A DNA stretch of 15,981 bases, taken from contig JAUIFJ010000051.1 in the NCBI GenBank assembly GCA_030429345.1, positions 1 to 15,981 on the forward strand. The letters run 5' to 3'. This DNA comes from a bacterium (lineage in GTDB: Bacteria > CAIWAD01). The notes below the pieces were generated by a model. It ran no database searches, was not told the DNA's origin, and saw nothing but the letters and a program-made list of their open reading frames with translations. The translations under genes were made by a program, and so were the position numbers. Below are positions 4,225-12,575 of the stretch, one piece after another (positions within the stretch are counted from its first letter, which is position 1; each line of letters starts with the position of its first letter).

Positions 4225-4650
4225 ATGGACCGACTTCTGCCACAGGCCGTTCTCTGGATCGGTCTGAGCCTTTCATCCGCCGCCGAGGCGACCCAGCTGC
4301 GCCTGCACCTGGCCGCGGGCGGGCTGGTGGAACTGCCGGTCGCCGACCTGCAAAGCCTCCGCTTCGAGGGAGTCCAGCCACCTGCTCCCCGCGTCGACAT
4401 CCGGTTGACTGGTGGTCAGCTGGCCTTGAGCTGGGCTCCCCTGCCCCGAGCGGCCGCCCTCTGGTCGACGGCTACCCCCTACGATACCGGTCCGGCCGCC
4501 TGGGTCCTGGAAGCAGCCTTCGTGGCCGGCTCGCAGGGCACGCAACTCCCCATTGACGCCGGCCGGCGTTTCTACCAGTTGCGATTGGAGGACGCGAGCC
4601 GGACGACCTCCCCTTCCGCAAACGATGGCATCTACACCGATACACCATGA
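4225..4650 (+). CDS. Small secreted protein: LxxH...SLxF N-terminal motif plus FN3-like domain
   Basis: 141 residues. Probable signal peptide (residues 1-22, ending SSAAEA). Then comes a short motif, LRLHLAAGG...LQSLRF (25-47), that recurs in the next two proteins. The remainder (about 50-125) reads like one fibronectin-III-like sandwich: a strand RLTGGQLALSWAPL, then ATPYDTGPAAW, then AGRRFYQLRLED near the end. This is the pattern seen in secreted proteins of FCB-related bacteria. No sorting-type C-terminus and no catalytic motif are visible. First gene of a probable operon, with the promoter at 4105-4133 and the next gene 9 nt downstream. The Shine-Dalgarno is weak (CAGG around 4215-4218). 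Function unknown; the FN3-like call is from pattern, not alignment. Confidence 0.72.
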   Translation: MDRLLPQAVLWIGLSLSSAAEATQLRLHLAAGGLVELPVADLQSLRFEGVQPPAPRVDIRLTGGQLALSWAPLPRAAALWSTATPYDTGPAAWVLEAAFVAGSQGTQLPIDAGRRFYQLRLEDASRTTSPSANDGIYTDTP

Positions 4651-4659
4651 AGGAACCGC

Positions 4660-5118
4660 ATGATCCCGACACGCACCTGGCTGGCAGCGCTGCTGTGCTG
4701 CACGCCCCTGCTCCAGGCGCAAAGCCTGCTGACGATTCATCGAACGGACGGCGAGGCGGAGAGCTTTGCCCTCGAGACGATCCGCAGCCTGCGCTTCACG
4801 GCGTCTACGGAGGTGGAAGACGCCTCCGCGCCGCTGGCGAGCGCCTTCGCGCTGCAGCCCAACTTCCCCAACCCCTTCAATCCCGAAACGACGATCGTGT
4901 ACACGCTCGAGCGTCCGCTGGACCTGAAAGTCGAGATCCACGACCTGCGTGGAGCGCGGGTGGCGACCCTGGCCGATGGGCTGCATGCGGCGGGTCGACA
5001 CGAGCTCCGCTGGACGGGCCGCAACGGGGAGGGGCGTGCCGTGGCGAGCGGAGTCTACCTTCTTGTCGCACAACACGAGGAGCAGAGCCGCACGCGCAAG
5101 CTGCTCCTCCTGAAATGA
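4660..5118 (+). CDS. Mini secreted protein: signal peptide, LxxH...SLxF motif and C-terminal FlgD-Ig/T9SS-like sorting domain
   Basis: 152 residues. Signal peptide at about 1-20 (RTWLAALLCCTPLLQAQ). The shared module LLTIHRTDGE...IRSLRF follows at residues 23-46. A short linker leads straight into a FlgD-Ig-like sorting-type domain (about 65-152) with PNFPNPFNPET (NPFNP from 71), VEIHDLRGARVATL, GVYLLVAQ and the tail RKLLLLK. There is no passenger domain between the module and the sorting domain, which is unusual because these domains normally sit at the end of large cargo proteins. Start chosen at 4660 because AAGGA (4650-4654) sits 5 nt upstream. It is 9 nt after the preceding stop and overlaps or abuts the next gene, so it is certainly co-transcribed if expressed. 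Confidence 0.82.
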   Translation: MIPTRTWLAALLCCTPLLQAQSLLTIHRTDGEAESFALETIRSLRFTASTEVEDASAPLASAFALQPNFPNPFNPETTIVYTLERPLDLKVEIHDLRGARVATLADGLHAAGRHELRWTGRNGEGRAVASGVYLLVAQHEEQSRTRKLLLLK

Positions 5119-5129
5119 GAGGCTTCCAG

Positions 5130-7418
5130 ATGAGCAATCGAACTGCAAGCCTGCTGCTGCTTCTGCTGTCGGTCACTTTCGTCCGGGCGCAGGAGCTGCA
5201 CCTGGTGGATCACGACGGCAACAGCCAGTCCTGGCCACTCTCGGAGCTGACAAGCATCACCTTCGAGGACGATCCCATCCGCTCGGCCAACGACATGCTC
5301 CTGCTCCACCGCCCGGCGGATGTCCTGGGCATCGACCTCTCCGGCATCGACAGCCTGAGTTTCCCGGACGGCGAATGGCTGCGCATCCATAGCCCGGAGG
5401 CGGAGACCGACTATGCCCTGGCAGGCATCGACAGCCTGGGCTTCGGCGACAGCGAGGCCGTCCAGGTGATCTACCGCGAAAGCAGCGCCTGGGTGATCAA
5501 TCCCCTGGAAAGCCTGGGTGTGACGGTGTCCTTCGATGGCGCCCATGTGCTCGTCACCTCCGACGAAGGCATCGAGGATGTGCTCTACGAGCTGAGCGGA
5601 CACACCCAGGACGGCGGCTTCAAGATCTATTCCGAGGAAGACTTCGGCCTGCGCCTGAAGGGCGTGCAGCTGCAGAGCGAAATCGGCCCTGCCATCAACG
5701 TGCAGAATGGAGATGCCGAGATCGAACTGGCCGCGGGCACGGTGAGCCGCCTGGCGGACGGCATGGTCTACAATGATCCCCCCGACGACGAAGACCAGAA
5801 AGGGGCCATCTTCGGCGAGGACGACCTGGTCTTCGGCGGGGAAGGCGCGGTAGTGATCACGGGGCGTGGCGACGACCAGCACGCCCTGGCCTGTGATGAC
5901 TGGATTCTGATCCAAAGTGGCACGATCACCGTTGCCGGCGCCACCAAGGACGCGGTGCACACCAACGACGGCCTGGAAATGACCGGCGGCATCCTTGAGC
6001 TCAGCGCCGACGGGGACGGCCTCGACGGGGGCGCGGGACCGGTCGTGCTCTCTGGCGGAATGCTGGCCATCGAAGTGCCGGAGAACGACAACGACGGCAT
6101 CAAGTGCGACGGGGAGATCACGCTCGATGGCGCGGAGGTCACTCTCCAGGTGGACGGAGACCAGTCCAAGGGCATGAACGCGGCGACAATCCAGCTGCTG
6201 GACGGAACTCTTGTGATCCAGACGACCGGCGATGCCGTGCTCGAGGAGGCCGGATCCGGTTTCGATCCTTCCTACTGCACGGGGATCAAGGCCGATGAGC
6301 TTGTGACACTCGACGGGGCCAATGTCGAGATCACCACCAGCGGCGCGGCGGGCCGCGGCATTTCCAGCGACGGCGACATCTCGCTGCTTTCCGGCAGCCT
6401 GCAGATCAATTCCAGCGAGGACGGCTTCAGCTACACCAACGAGGAGGGCCAGAACGACGCTGCGCAAGGGCATTGCCTGAAGACCGACGGCGACCTGTTG
6501 TTCTCGGGCGGCACGACGACCCTGTCTCACGCCGGCGACGGCGGCCGCGGCATTTCCGTGGACGGCAACCTGCTGGTCGAAAACGAGGGGACTATGCTCG
6601 ACATCACCACCACCGGTGGGTCGATCTCCCTGGGAGGCGGCAATGCGGCCGAAGCCAAGGCCGTCAAGGCCGACAGCCTGATCACAATCATCGGCGGAAC
6701 GCTTACCATTGATTCGGCCGATGACGCCCTGAAGTCGGAAACGGGCATCCACATATCCGGCGGAGAGATCACGATCGAGGATTCAGAAGAAGGCATCGAG
6801 GCCCCGGACATCCACATCACGGGCGGCGACATCTTCGCCCGCTCCGGCGACGACGTGTTGAATGCCACCGCCGGCGTAGACGGGGAATTCAATGATGGCA
6901 GCCTGCTGCTGATCGAAGGCGGTCGCGTCGTACTCGACAGCTATGGCGGGGACTGCATCGACAGCAACGGGAATTTCACCATGGCCGGGGGCACCTTGCT
7001 GGTGCACGGTCCGCCCAACCAGCCGGAAGTGGCTCTTGACATCAATGGAGTCTTCCGAGTGGACGGCGGGCTGCTGGTCAGCGCCGCGGTCAATGGCAAC
7101 CACACGGAAACCCCCAGCAACCAATCGACGGCGCAGGTCTTTTTGCTGCGGCGCAACCAGAGCCTGTCCGGCGGCACCCTGCTGCACATCGAGGACAGCG
7201 AGGGCAACGAGCTGGTCACTTTCGCTCCCTTGCGCAGCTACGGGGCGATCCACTTCAGTTCTCCCGATATCCAGGCCGGCACACAATACATCTTCTACAC
7301 CGGGGGCAGCCACAGCGGCAGCGAGCAGGATGGCCTGTATACAGGTGGATCCTATACGCCTGGAACACAGCGTGCGACGTTTACGGCAAACGGCGGGGTG
7401 CAGCAGATCAACTTCTAG
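5130..7418 (+). CDS. Secreted Cthe_2159-like (carbohydrate-binding, DUF4353-type) beta-helix protein with tandem LxxH...SLxF modules
   Basis: 762 residues from the ATG at 5130. Signal peptide 1-20 (ASLLLLLLSVTFVRA). Residues 22-45, 56-78, 83-105 and, more degenerately, 111-135 are successive copies of the N-terminal module found once in each of the two genes before it. From about residue 145 the protein is made of short Gly/Asp-rich strand repeats such as DGDGLDGG, NDNDGIKCDG, GISSDGDISL and KADSLITIIGG. These are typical of the Cthe_2159 family, a calcium-binding right-handed parallel beta-helix with affinity for acidic sugars and cellulose; sugar binding here is inferred. It lacks the C-terminal sorting domain of its neighbour. 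GAGAGG at 5117-5122, 7 nt upstream, favours ATG 5130. An alternative ATG at 5115 overlaps the previous stop (ATGA) and adds five residues. A strong terminator follows. Confidence 0.88.
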   Translation: MSNRTASLLLLLLSVTFVRAQELHLVDHDGNSQSWPLSELTSITFEDDPIRSANDMLLLHRPADVLGIDLSGIDSLSFPDGEWLRIHSPEAETDYALAGIDSLGFGDSEAVQVIYRESSAWVINPLESLGVTVSFDGAHVLVTSDEGIEDVLYELSGHTQDGGFKIYSEEDFGLRLKGVQLQSEIGPAINVQNGDAEIELAAGTVSRLADGMVYNDPPDDEDQKGAIFGEDDLVFGGEGAVVITGRGDDQHALACDDWILIQSGTITVAGATKDAVHTNDGLEMTGGILELSADGDGLDGGAGPVVLSGGMLAIEVPENDNDGIKCDGEITLDGAEVTLQVDGDQSKGMNAATIQLLDGTLVIQTTGDAVLEEAGSGFDPSYCTGIKADELVTLDGANVEITTSGAAGRGISSDGDISLLSGSLQINSSEDGFSYTNEEGQNDAAQGHCLKTDGDLLFSGGTTTLSHAGDGGRGISVDGNLLVENEGTMLDITTTGGSISLGGGNAAEAKAVKADSLITIIGGTLTIDSADDALKSETGIHISGGEITIEDSEEGIEAPDIHITGGDIFARSGDDVLNATAGVDGEFNDGSLLLIEGGRVVLDSYGGDCIDSNGNFTMAGGTLLVHGPPNQPEVALDINGVFRVDGGLLVSAAVNGNHTETPSNQSTAQVFLLRRNQSLSGGTLLHIEDSEGNELVTFAPLRSYGAIHFSSPDIQAGTQYIFYTGGSHSGSEQDGLYTGGSYTPGTQRATFTANGGVQQINF

Positions 7419-10788: not shown

Positions 10789-11137
10789 GTGTTGCAGGCA
10801 AGCGCCCTCAGACAGCGCAATGAGTTGATCTCGCTTCATGGAAGAGCTCGGCCGATCCCATGGGCGCGAAGCGCACACATATCCCCCTTGCTGCAGGCGA
10901 AAGCCTGCAGCCCCCATTACAATCCCCATCCCTCAAGCCCCCATCGTCCAATTCACCGGACAGTTCCTGTGCAGTCGTGATCCGTCCATTCATCTCGACG
11001 TTCCGCCGATATCAATGTTTATTCGCGGGGGATGTGTTCCATCTCCAACCGGGAAGCTCTATCCTTGGCACGTCAATACAGGGCTGGCCGCATGCGGCAA
11101 GTACTGCTGTGTGCCATCAGGGCAAAAGGACTCTCCA
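10789..11137. other. Intergenic region upstream of the transposase, containing one REP
   Basis: 349 bp with no supported gene. The first 70 bp are unremarkable. 10862-10915 is REP element a. The remaining about 220 bp up to the GTG at 11138 could hold the transposase promoter or the element's left end. I looked for -35/-10 pairs and found none convincing: TTGGCA at 11065-11070 has no partner at 16-18 nt. Confidence 0.6.
10862..10915 (+). repeat. REP element a (single, forward)
   Basis: GGGCGCGAAGCGCAC at 10862-10876, then 13 nt, then a perfect hairpin with 9-bp stem GCTGCAGGC and loop GAAA (10890-10911), then CCCC. The first box contains the mini-hairpin GCGC-GAA-GCGC. It is 222 bp upstream of the transposase start and about 75 bp after the FG-GAP gene stop. 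Confidence 0.88.
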
Positions 11138-11590
11138 GTGAGCTACATCAACATCAATTTCCATGTGGTCTTCTCGACGAAGTATCGCCTGCCCTGGATC
11201 GATCGCGACCTGCGCTGGCCGATCACGGGAATCATGAAGGAGATCATCCGCGAGGATGGCGGCCTGTTGTTTGAAGGCGGGGGAATCGAGGATCACATGC
11301 ACCTGTTGTTCCGCCTGCCTCAGACGGCCAGCCTTCCCCTGGTGTTGCAACGGCTGAAAGCCAGCACCTCGCGCTGGGTGCACAAGGAAGCGGGTCTGAA
11401 CAAGAACTGTCGCTGGCAAAAAGGCTATGCCGCCTTTTCGGTCGGCTACAGGGAGGTACCGATTGTACGACGCTACATCCAGCGCCAGGAAATGCATCAT
11501 CGTCACCTGAACCTGGTGGAAGAATACAAGAACCTTCTCCGCGAACACGGAATCGAGTTCGATGAGAATCGATTGTTTGAAGAGGAGTAG
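11138..11590 (+). CDS. IS200-like / REP-associated tyrosine (Y1 HUH) transposase
   Basis: 150 residues, Transposase_17 (IS200/IS605 TnpA) fold. It would bind hairpins in single-stranded DNA and cut and rejoin them through a 5'-phosphotyrosine. Visible hallmarks: the N-terminal strand SYININFHVVFSTKYR; the HUH metal motif His53-Met54-His55 (EDHMHLLFRLP); LKASTSRWVHKE; WQKGYAAFSV; the catalytic Tyr113 in YIQRQEMHHRH with Gln117; and a C-terminal EYKNLLREHGIEFDE. All expected catalytic residues are present, so it looks intact. GTG 11138 is the start: AAAGGA (11125-11130) lies 7 nt upstream, and the conserved N-terminus begins right there. It belongs to the branch lacking TnpB and often linked to REP repeats, which agrees with the hairpin repeats on both sides. 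Confidence 0.93.
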   Translation: MSYININFHVVFSTKYRLPWIDRDLRWPITGIMKEIIREDGGLLFEGGGIEDHMHLLFRLPQTASLPLVLQRLKASTSRWVHKEAGLNKNCRWQKGYAAFSVGYREVPIVRRYIQRQEMHHRHLNLVEEYKNLLREHGIEFDENRLFEEE

Positions 11591-11608
11591 GGGTTTGACG
11601 ATTTTTTT

Positions 11609-11724
11609 GGGGCTGAGGGCTTGCGCCCACAGCCATGTGTATGAGTGCGCTTCGCGCCCTGGTTGCAATCCTCCGACTGCAAGGGCGCGAAGCGCACCCA
11701 CCCTCCCCTTGCTGCAGGCGAAAG
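11609..11724. repeat. BIME b: inverted pair of REP elements (right half truncated)
   Basis: The left REP is in reverse orientation: hairpin 11611-11634 (GGCTG and GGGC stem segments, A-A mismatch), an 11-nt spacer, then GTGCGCTTCGCGCCCT (11645-11660). After 21 nt, the right REP is forward: AGGGCGCGAAGCGCAC (11682-11697), a 13-nt spacer and the start of the GAAA hairpin (11711-11724), which breaks off after GAAAG. The two 16-nt boxes are perfect inverted repeats, so the whole can fold as one long cruciform. The 121 bp that follow (11725-11845) contain nothing I recognise. 111 of 116 positions match BIME c. Confidence 0.88.
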
Positions 11725-11845
11725 TGATCGCCATGTGCCACTTCACCCGGAACAACCTGGCCAAGGCACGCGCACACGTATTCCGGAACCCTGTACGCAA
11801 TGTGATCGAAATGACCACAATGAGTACGGCTGGCCAGCTTTTTCC

Positions 11846-11975
11846 GGGGCTGAGGGCTTGCGCCCACAGCCATGTGCATGTGTGCGCTTCGCGCCCTGGT
11901 GGCAATCCTCCGATTCCAAGGGCGCGAAGCGCACCCACCCTCCCCTTGCTGCAGGCGAAAGCCTGCAGCCCCCAT
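11846..11975. repeat. BIME c: complete inverted pair of REP elements
   Basis: The left reverse REP has hairpin 11848-11871, an 11-nt spacer and a box at 11882-11897. The right forward REP has a box at 11919-11934, a 13-nt spacer and a complete hairpin at 11948-11969 (9-bp stem GCTGCAGGC, loop GAAA), then CCCCC. It is a near-copy of BIME b, 237 bp away. It lies between the transposase and the CopD-like gene, whose start is 83 bp further on. Confidence 0.9.
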
Positions 11976-12057
11976 CCACAAATCTTCCCTGACCATTCCA
12001 TGTGGTTTCATTCAAAAGCCAGTGTGAACTTCCTTTTCAGGTTCATTCGGAGTTTCC

Positions 12058-12498
12058 ATGTACGGCGTCCTTCTTTTTCTGCATATCCTCGGCGCGACGA
12101 TCTGGACGGGGGGACACATCGTCCTCAGCACGGTCATCCTGCCCCGCGTGCTGCGCGAGGGTTCCCCGCGACTCCTGCTCGAATTCGAGAAGCCCTTCGA
12201 GCGCATCGGCCTCCCGGCTTTGCTGGTCCAGGTGCTGACCGGCATCGAGCTGGCGCGGCGCTACTTGCCAATGAACCAGTGGTTCGACTTCTCCAACCCC
12301 CTGGCGCACGGCATCGCCACCAAGCTGCTGCTGCTGGCGCTGACCCTGGCCTTCGCGCTGCATGCCCAGTTCCGCGTGCTCCCCCGCCTGGGCGAGGGCC
12401 GGCTGAAGCAGATGGCCTGGCACATCGTGCCTGTGACCCTCTTCTCGATTCTCTTCCTGATCGCCGGCGTCGCCTTCCGGGCCGGCTGGTACTACTAG
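12058..12498 (+). CDS. CopD-like integral membrane protein (four TM segments)
   Basis: 146 residues with four hydrophobic segments: about 2-30, 50-69, 86-105 and 118-144. The opening LLFLHILGATIWTGGHIVL carries His9 and His20. Other conserved-looking histidines are in PLAHGIATK, ALHAQF and MAWHIVPVTL. This layout matches small stand-alone CopD-family (copper resistance D-like) membrane proteins found in many bacteria, in which paired histidines are thought to bind heme or copper. A role in metal or redox handling is inferred from the family only. The ATG is preceded by CGGAG (12048-12052) at 5 nt. It sits between two REP loci and 184 bp before katA, in the same direction. There is no visible terminator between it and katA except the REP hairpin. 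Confidence 0.75.
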   Translation: MYGVLLFLHILGATIWTGGHIVLSTVILPRVLREGSPRLLLEFEKPFERIGLPALLVQVLTGIELARRYLPMNQWFDFSNPLAHGIATKLLLLALTLAFALHAQFRVLPRLGEGRLKQMAWHIVPVTLFSILFLIAGVAFRAGWYY

Positions 12499-12521
12499 CC
12501 CGAGAGCTCACCCGATTCCAG

Positions 12522-12575
12522 GGGCGCGAAGCGCACCCACCTTCCCCATGCAGCAGGCGCAAGCCTGCAGCCCCC
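12522..12575 (+). repeat. REP element d (single, forward, variant hairpin)
   Basis: GGGCGCGAAGCGCAC (12522-12536), a 13-nt spacer, then a hairpin 12550-12571 with 6-bp stem GCAGGC, loop GCAA, an A-A mismatch and two further outer pairs, then CCCC. It lies 23 bp after the stop of the CopD-like gene, a typical 3'-UTR position for REPs. Compared with copy a, the loop changed from GAAA to GCAA yet remains a GNRA-type loop. Confidence 0.85.

Follow-up and report, generated by a model that had tools for sequence, protein, structure and literature searches.

RESULTS

The window, by which we mean the entire 15,981-nt contig C52 of a 4.24-Mb genome that is 98% complete, carries the transposase gene tnpA amid six units of a palindromic repeat, together with a bystander gene (Table 1). 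Because homologues indicate so, the GTG codon is taken as the start of tnpA; the frame stays open farther upstream, through REP unit 1, to an ATG at position 10838 (250 aa). Elsewhere in the window, positions 4647-7418 encode a large protein with Cthe_2159 carbohydrate-binding domains.

Table 1. Positions of tnpA, the repeat units and neighboring features in the window, and of the sixth repeat family in the same genome
Feature	Position	Strand	Remarks
REP unit 1 (S hairpin, spacer and L hairpin, the last at 10890-10911), upstream of tnpA	10862..10913	+	
tnpA, subclass 1.2 HUH-Y1 transposase, 150 aa	11138..11590	+	GTG start; Pfam Y1_Tnp, NCBIfam IS200, invariant residues
Two inverted pairs (BIME/REPIN-like)	11585..11961	.	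~140-nt segment repeated
REP unit 2, first inverted pair, left arm	11610..11659	-	Also R1 model match, E=0.019
REP unit 3, first inverted pair, right arm	11683..11725	+	Truncated within L
REP unit 4, second inverted pair, left arm	11847..11896	-	Also R1 model match, E=0.0018
REP unit 5, second inverted pair, right arm	11920..11971	+	
CopD-domain membrane protein, bystander between units 5 and 6	12058..12498	+	
REP unit 6, between CopD-like gene and catalase gene	12522..12573	+	
Sixth-family sites (genome G000)	C8:83908, C11:50276, C13:157890, C13:58446, C75:91546, C28:23269, C28:123937, C66:46311, C25:136142		

The tnpA product contains a Y1_Tnp domain (Pfam, E=3e-24) with the motifs D52-H53-M-H55, WQ at residues 93-94, Y113 and YIQRQEMHH. 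Its His53, His55 and Tyr113 are invariant across an alignment of the five paralogues in this genome, so that the intact Y1 HUH transposase read from the DNA in the initial annotation stands. The accompanying assignment to the REP-associated tyrosine transposases (RAYTs) does not: the enzyme exceeds the NCBIfam IS200 cut-off (64 versus 55 bits), scores far below that of REP_Tyr_transpos (25.7 versus 80 bits), and has Y---Q in place of the class-2 motif Y---NP. In a tree that included class-2 RAYT-like sequences, the branch dividing class 1 from class 2 had a support of 100/100 and the window enzyme lay outside class 2; a single clade for subclass 1.2 was not rejected (p-AU 0.51), but its support in the tree was weak. 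When the five-paralogue profile was compared with the PDB by sequence, it retrieved IS200-type structures only (ISDra2, IS608 and Sulfolobus), and a structure search with an AlphaFold2 model of the window TnpA (pLDDT 89) gave ISDra2 and IS608 as the best PDB matches, with E. coli TnpAREP (4er8) ranking lower. The window enzyme is thus an IS200-type transposase of class 1, not a class-2 RAYT, and, judged by its sequence, it carries the signature Y---Q--HH of TnpA_Y1 subclass 1.2.

Each repeat unit of the window family consists of a short hairpin (S, with a GCGC-GAA-GCGC core), a spacer of 11 to 14 nt and a long hairpin (L, for example CTGCAGGC-GAAA-GCCTGCAG). The 15-nt box GGGCGCGAAGCGCAC, present in the window as exact copies at 10862+, 11645-, 11683+, 11882-, 11920+ and 12522+, and the hairpin are parts of one unit of about 50 nt. 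All six units at four places, including the two inverted pairs, were found as initially annotated, with the refinement that unit 3 breaks off in its long hairpin; the L hairpin of unit 2, GGCTGTGGGCGCAAGCCCTCAGCC, contains a T.T mismatch. Both inverted pairs belong to a segment of about 140 nt that is repeated with 89% identity at a spacing of 237 nt. The genome-wide search for the box proposed in the same annotation yielded nine exact copies, three of them outside the window (one on contig C63, two on C75), and the reversed pattern gave none in 4.24 Mb; the family has at least seven further units outside the window. The R1 model that matched two of the units (Table 1) was built from other genomes only.

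The window's genome holds five subclass-1.2 genes with a mutual identity of 37 to 47%, in agreement with the few, diverged copies of that subclass, and each sits amid a different dispersed repeat family, which we name after the contig of its gene. The five repeat modules, joined as one query, had 177 matches in the genome, and iterated profiles gave 13 (C52), 17 (C9), 33 (C46), 21 (C44) and 27 (C8) units, counts that are lower bounds since they come from stretches covering part of the genome. There are therefore at least 111 units, nearly all of them extragenic. The association is specific to the single enzyme: counted within 2 kb, the units of each family lie near their own gene (6, 4, 8, 8 and 5 along the diagonal of the family-by-gene matrix), every off-diagonal cell is 0, and the six other Y1 genes, of which five are class-2-like, have no unit of the five families within that distance. 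These class-2 RAYT-like genes are found at C59:13859, C75:130296, C9:21960, C55:370 and C11:169668. Two of the five exceed the REP_Tyr cut-off, and the cell carries transposases of both classes.

All five families share the plan of S, 11 to 14 nt, and L. The bases abutting L are GGTAG in C46, GATAG in C44, GTTAG with variants in C8, ATAAAG in C9 and CTTG or CATG in C52. The initial annotation had seen no GTAG guide, and this holds for the window family, which has no GT[AG]G at the hairpin foot; it does not extend to C46, C44, a sixth family and most relatives with a detected unit, where RTAG stands directly 5' of L. Compared with this tag, that of the window family is decayed (CTTG/CATG). Among neighboring units, 39 pairs are inverted with S inside, 11 are inverted the other way round and 10 point in the same direction. 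The C8 family displays compensatory changes in both S and L (5 pairs, 24 cells), with a covariation of 0.227 versus 0.081 after shuffling.

With ORFs accepted by a third-position GC (codon-bias) filter, 76 of the 80 units away from tnpA lie outside ORFs, though ORFs cover 76% of that DNA; the genes on either side converge in 30 cases, are codirectional in 27 and diverge in 2. Without the codon-bias filter, 49 of the 80 units would count as inside ORFs, a measure that we discarded as uninformative given the high GC content of the genome. C46-family pairs lie at the contig ends of C22, C27, C32, C40 and C92, where the repeats probably broke the assembly, and the true copy number is therefore probably higher. 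The sixth two-hairpin family has a full GTAG tag (GCCGCAAAGCGGC-GACAGAATAGTAG-CTGCGGGTGCCAACCCGCAG; nine matches at up to three mismatches). No cognate subclass-1.2 gene was found near its copies, and it may be an orphan REP population that has lost its enzyme or whose enzyme is missing from the assembly.

Specificity extends to the comparison between genomes. For each of ten genomes, we took repeats from one gene's flank and combined all ten sets in a single query; among the matches listed, 2 to 49 per genome, all fall in each genome's own segment. The families with few copies (2 to 3 in G002, G003 and G005) could reflect local duplication. Within six of the ten genomes, the subclass-1.2 copies are 33 to 56% identical, except for one pair at 82%, which shares one repeat family. 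A covariance model made from 16 units of 16 other loci (E<=0.01, 150 candidates scored per genome) identified 78 units in the window's genome; among the ten relatives' genomes, nine had 3 to 76 and G003 had none, and three genomes belonging to the same family as the window's genome gave none either. The five repeat families are likewise absent from these three genomes (G011-G013), the family and class being represented by only four other genomes in the set searched. The refuting condition that the repeats be equally abundant in relatives without the transposase is answered by these three genomes: the host lineage does not carry the repeats as a rule.

As relatives, we took the best 80 matches to the five-paralogue alignment in a scan of genome contigs; these come mostly from metagenome-assembled genomes, mostly of the PVC superphylum, Acidobacteriota and Bacteroidota, without cyanobacterial members. 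Their loci span Planctomycetota, Verrucomicrobiota, Chlamydiota, Acidobacteriota, Bacteroidota, Calditrichota, Sumerlaeota, Hydrogenedentota, Fibrobacterota, Pseudomonadota and others, and Y---Q--HH is present in 79 of the 80. Among the 67 loci with both 500-nt flanks complete, the upstream and downstream flanks share a repeat of at least 40 bits in 54 (81%), compared with 4 of 67 for flanks exchanged among loci and 2 of 201 for other positions in these loci (1 to 6%). Sharing was seen in Verrucomicrobiota (13/13), Planctomycetota (20/25), Acidobacteriota (5/6), Bacteroidota (7/10), Chlamydiota (3/4) and Pseudomonadota (2/2), plus single cases in further phyla; in 13 of the 67, no shared flank repeat reached the threshold.

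We searched the relatives for S and L at 6 to 18 nt from each other by pairing and G+C content only, so that neither TAG nor the 12-nt spacing played a part in detection. Near the genes, this gave 151 two-hairpin units (1.66 per kb, in 49 of 80 loci), and far from them 27 (0.057 per kb). TAG immediately precedes L in 69 of the 151 near units versus 1 of the 27 far ones, and in 0 of 13 units in class-2 gene flanks, an approximate control of 17 loci, two of which may have been clipped out of frame or at the edge of a contig. A spacing of 12 is the mode (52 of 151 units), and 42 of these 52 have TAG; in the 25 loci that combine this spacing with TAG, G predominates at spacer positions 1 (18 loci) and 5 (19 loci). 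The commonest architecture among relatives is thus S, 12 nt ending in RTAG, and L. S changed on both sides in four of its five pairs, and although the hairpins served as the selection criterion, so that their pairing is not independent, their variation is. Across these aligned units, the comparison shows that the structure of S is kept while its sequence changes.

As for ends and mobility, no Rfam family matched the units above the gathering score. Beside the two hairpins, the only trace of a cleavage motif was a weak one, an A preceding S and AA following L. The search for an empty and filled site pair of the repeats returned none, and no transposition event was observed. On the copies in the Pirellulaceae genome KatS3mg111 (G004, L156-L175), conserved DNA extends beyond the unit with no sharp ends. 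There, a repeat of about 120 nt is embedded in longer stretches of conserved sequence, as would be expected had larger composite modules been dispersed.

DISCUSSION

Our data place tnpA within its own family of dispersed extragenic palindromes, the arrangement by which REPs are defined. The locus is most probably REPtron-like, with a class-1 (IS200-type) enzyme and a bipartite repeat family of about 50 nt that we infer to be mobilized by it. The proposal that this is a distinct RAYT-REP class survives in part: the five enzyme-repeat pairs and the relatives support a REP/transposase class of its own, much more strongly than a single locus would, but its enzyme is not a RAYT in the usual sense. 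Since its own two-hairpin repeats surround the enzyme here and in about ten phyla, it probably disperses short repeats across the chromosome rather than producing copies of itself.

By analogy with IS608/ISDra2 TnpA and E. coli TnpAREP, we propose the following model. The substrate would be a unit of S, a spacer of 11 to 14 nt ending canonically in RTAG at the foot of L, and L, usually in inverted pairs with S inside. TnpA would bind L and its 5' guide on single-stranded DNA, Tyr113 would perform the cleavage, and REP units and pairs would be moved or copied in trans to extragenic sites, with the tnpA gene itself staying unmoved. S may act as a second, structurally constrained recognition element that is absent from known REPs. 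More tentatively, it is quite possible, if short of probable, that these genes form a separate REP/transposase lineage, widespread in the PVC superphylum, Acidobacteriota and Bacteroidota, that arose or was retained within IS200-type class 1 and in which S and L are presented jointly to the two active sites of a TnpA dimer, a mode undescribed for any REP.

Several observations would also suit an ordinary IS200/IS605 insertion sequence with subterminal hairpins, whose end remnants, MITE- or PATE-like, would make up the dispersed units: the enzyme passes the IS200 cut-off, its nearest folds are those of ISDra2 and IS608, and inverted repeats of about 90 to 100 nt lie near both gene ends in many relatives. 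Nevertheless, we did not find the mark of such elements, several nearly identical copies with a left end and a right end. Paralogues within a genome are 33 to 56% identical (one pair 82%), the dispersed unit is a single REP of about 50 nt or an inverted pair instead of a left plus a right end, and direct repeats on both sides are common (18 of the 56 best flank matches). We therefore regard an insertion sequence as unlikely.

It is even less probable that class-2 RAYTs spread the repeats and that the subclass-1.2 genes merely lie in repeat-rich islands. The genome does contain five class-2 homologues, two of them above the cut-off, but all five families are absent from the 2 kb around class-2 genes, and every family has exactly one subclass-1.2 gene nearby; moreover, class-2 flanks in other genomes are without S-TAG-L units, as far as the approximate control goes. 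We give as little credence to the hairpins being solely RNA elements, such as terminators or mRNA stabilizers, maintained by selection with no mobility. This would suit their position, mostly at gene 3' ends, but leaves unexplained that there is one family per transposase, that the repeats are absent from same-family genomes and that they are paired with the gene in many phyla. An RNA-element function may be a secondary role of the hairpins.

The class-1 REPtron that we favor bears on a subclass whose role was open, because it was published with neither insertion-sequence features nor REPs: subclass 1.2 is listed in a table as without REPs, and described as without IS ends and mostly from Cyanobacteria and Bacteroidetes (Quentin et al. 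2018, PMC6006769). The REP association contradicts this published descriptor, which is not a sequence criterion. Subclass 1.2 gains candidate substrates, one repeat family per enzyme, with a recognizable code of S hairpin, 12-nt spacer, RTAG and L hairpin. This suggests that REP systems also exist outside class 2, and supplies a candidate enzyme for the GTAG-type repeats known from the PVC superphylum. Genomes that combine five such enzyme-repeat pairs lend themselves to specificity tests. In the literature accessible to us, we found no paper tying subclass 1.2 to REPs or to PVC GTAG repeats, or describing S-12-RTAG-L; we claim no priority.

The published subclass 1.2 (PMC6006769) resembles the enzymes described here in Y---Q--HH and WQ, in its length of about 148 aa, in its low copy number and in its paralogues, about 36% identical; the genes described here differ in being flanked in most cases by REP-like units, in about ten phyla. 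With the class-2 RAYT/TnpAREP REPtrons of E. coli and Stenotrophomonas (PMC2817692, PMC8266576), they share a single-copy enzyme beside cognate dispersed extragenic palindromes, inverted pairs and, in some of the families, a GTAG-type tag at the hairpin foot, but the enzyme is of class 1 and each unit contains an additional short hairpin at a fixed distance. GTAG-tagged palindromes were reported from the PVC superphylum in 2013, in Planctomycetes and Verrucomicrobia (Di Nocera et al., PMC3733652); in the parts of that report available to us, they are described as single hairpins, unlike the present units, and neither an S hairpin nor a link to subclass 1.2 is described. Finally, IS608 and ISDra2 TnpA have the same fold, the same HUH-Y1 catalytic residues and the same logic of a hairpin plus a 5' guide. 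They belong, however, to mobile insertion sequences with distinct left and right ends, whereas the genes analyzed here are single and diverged.
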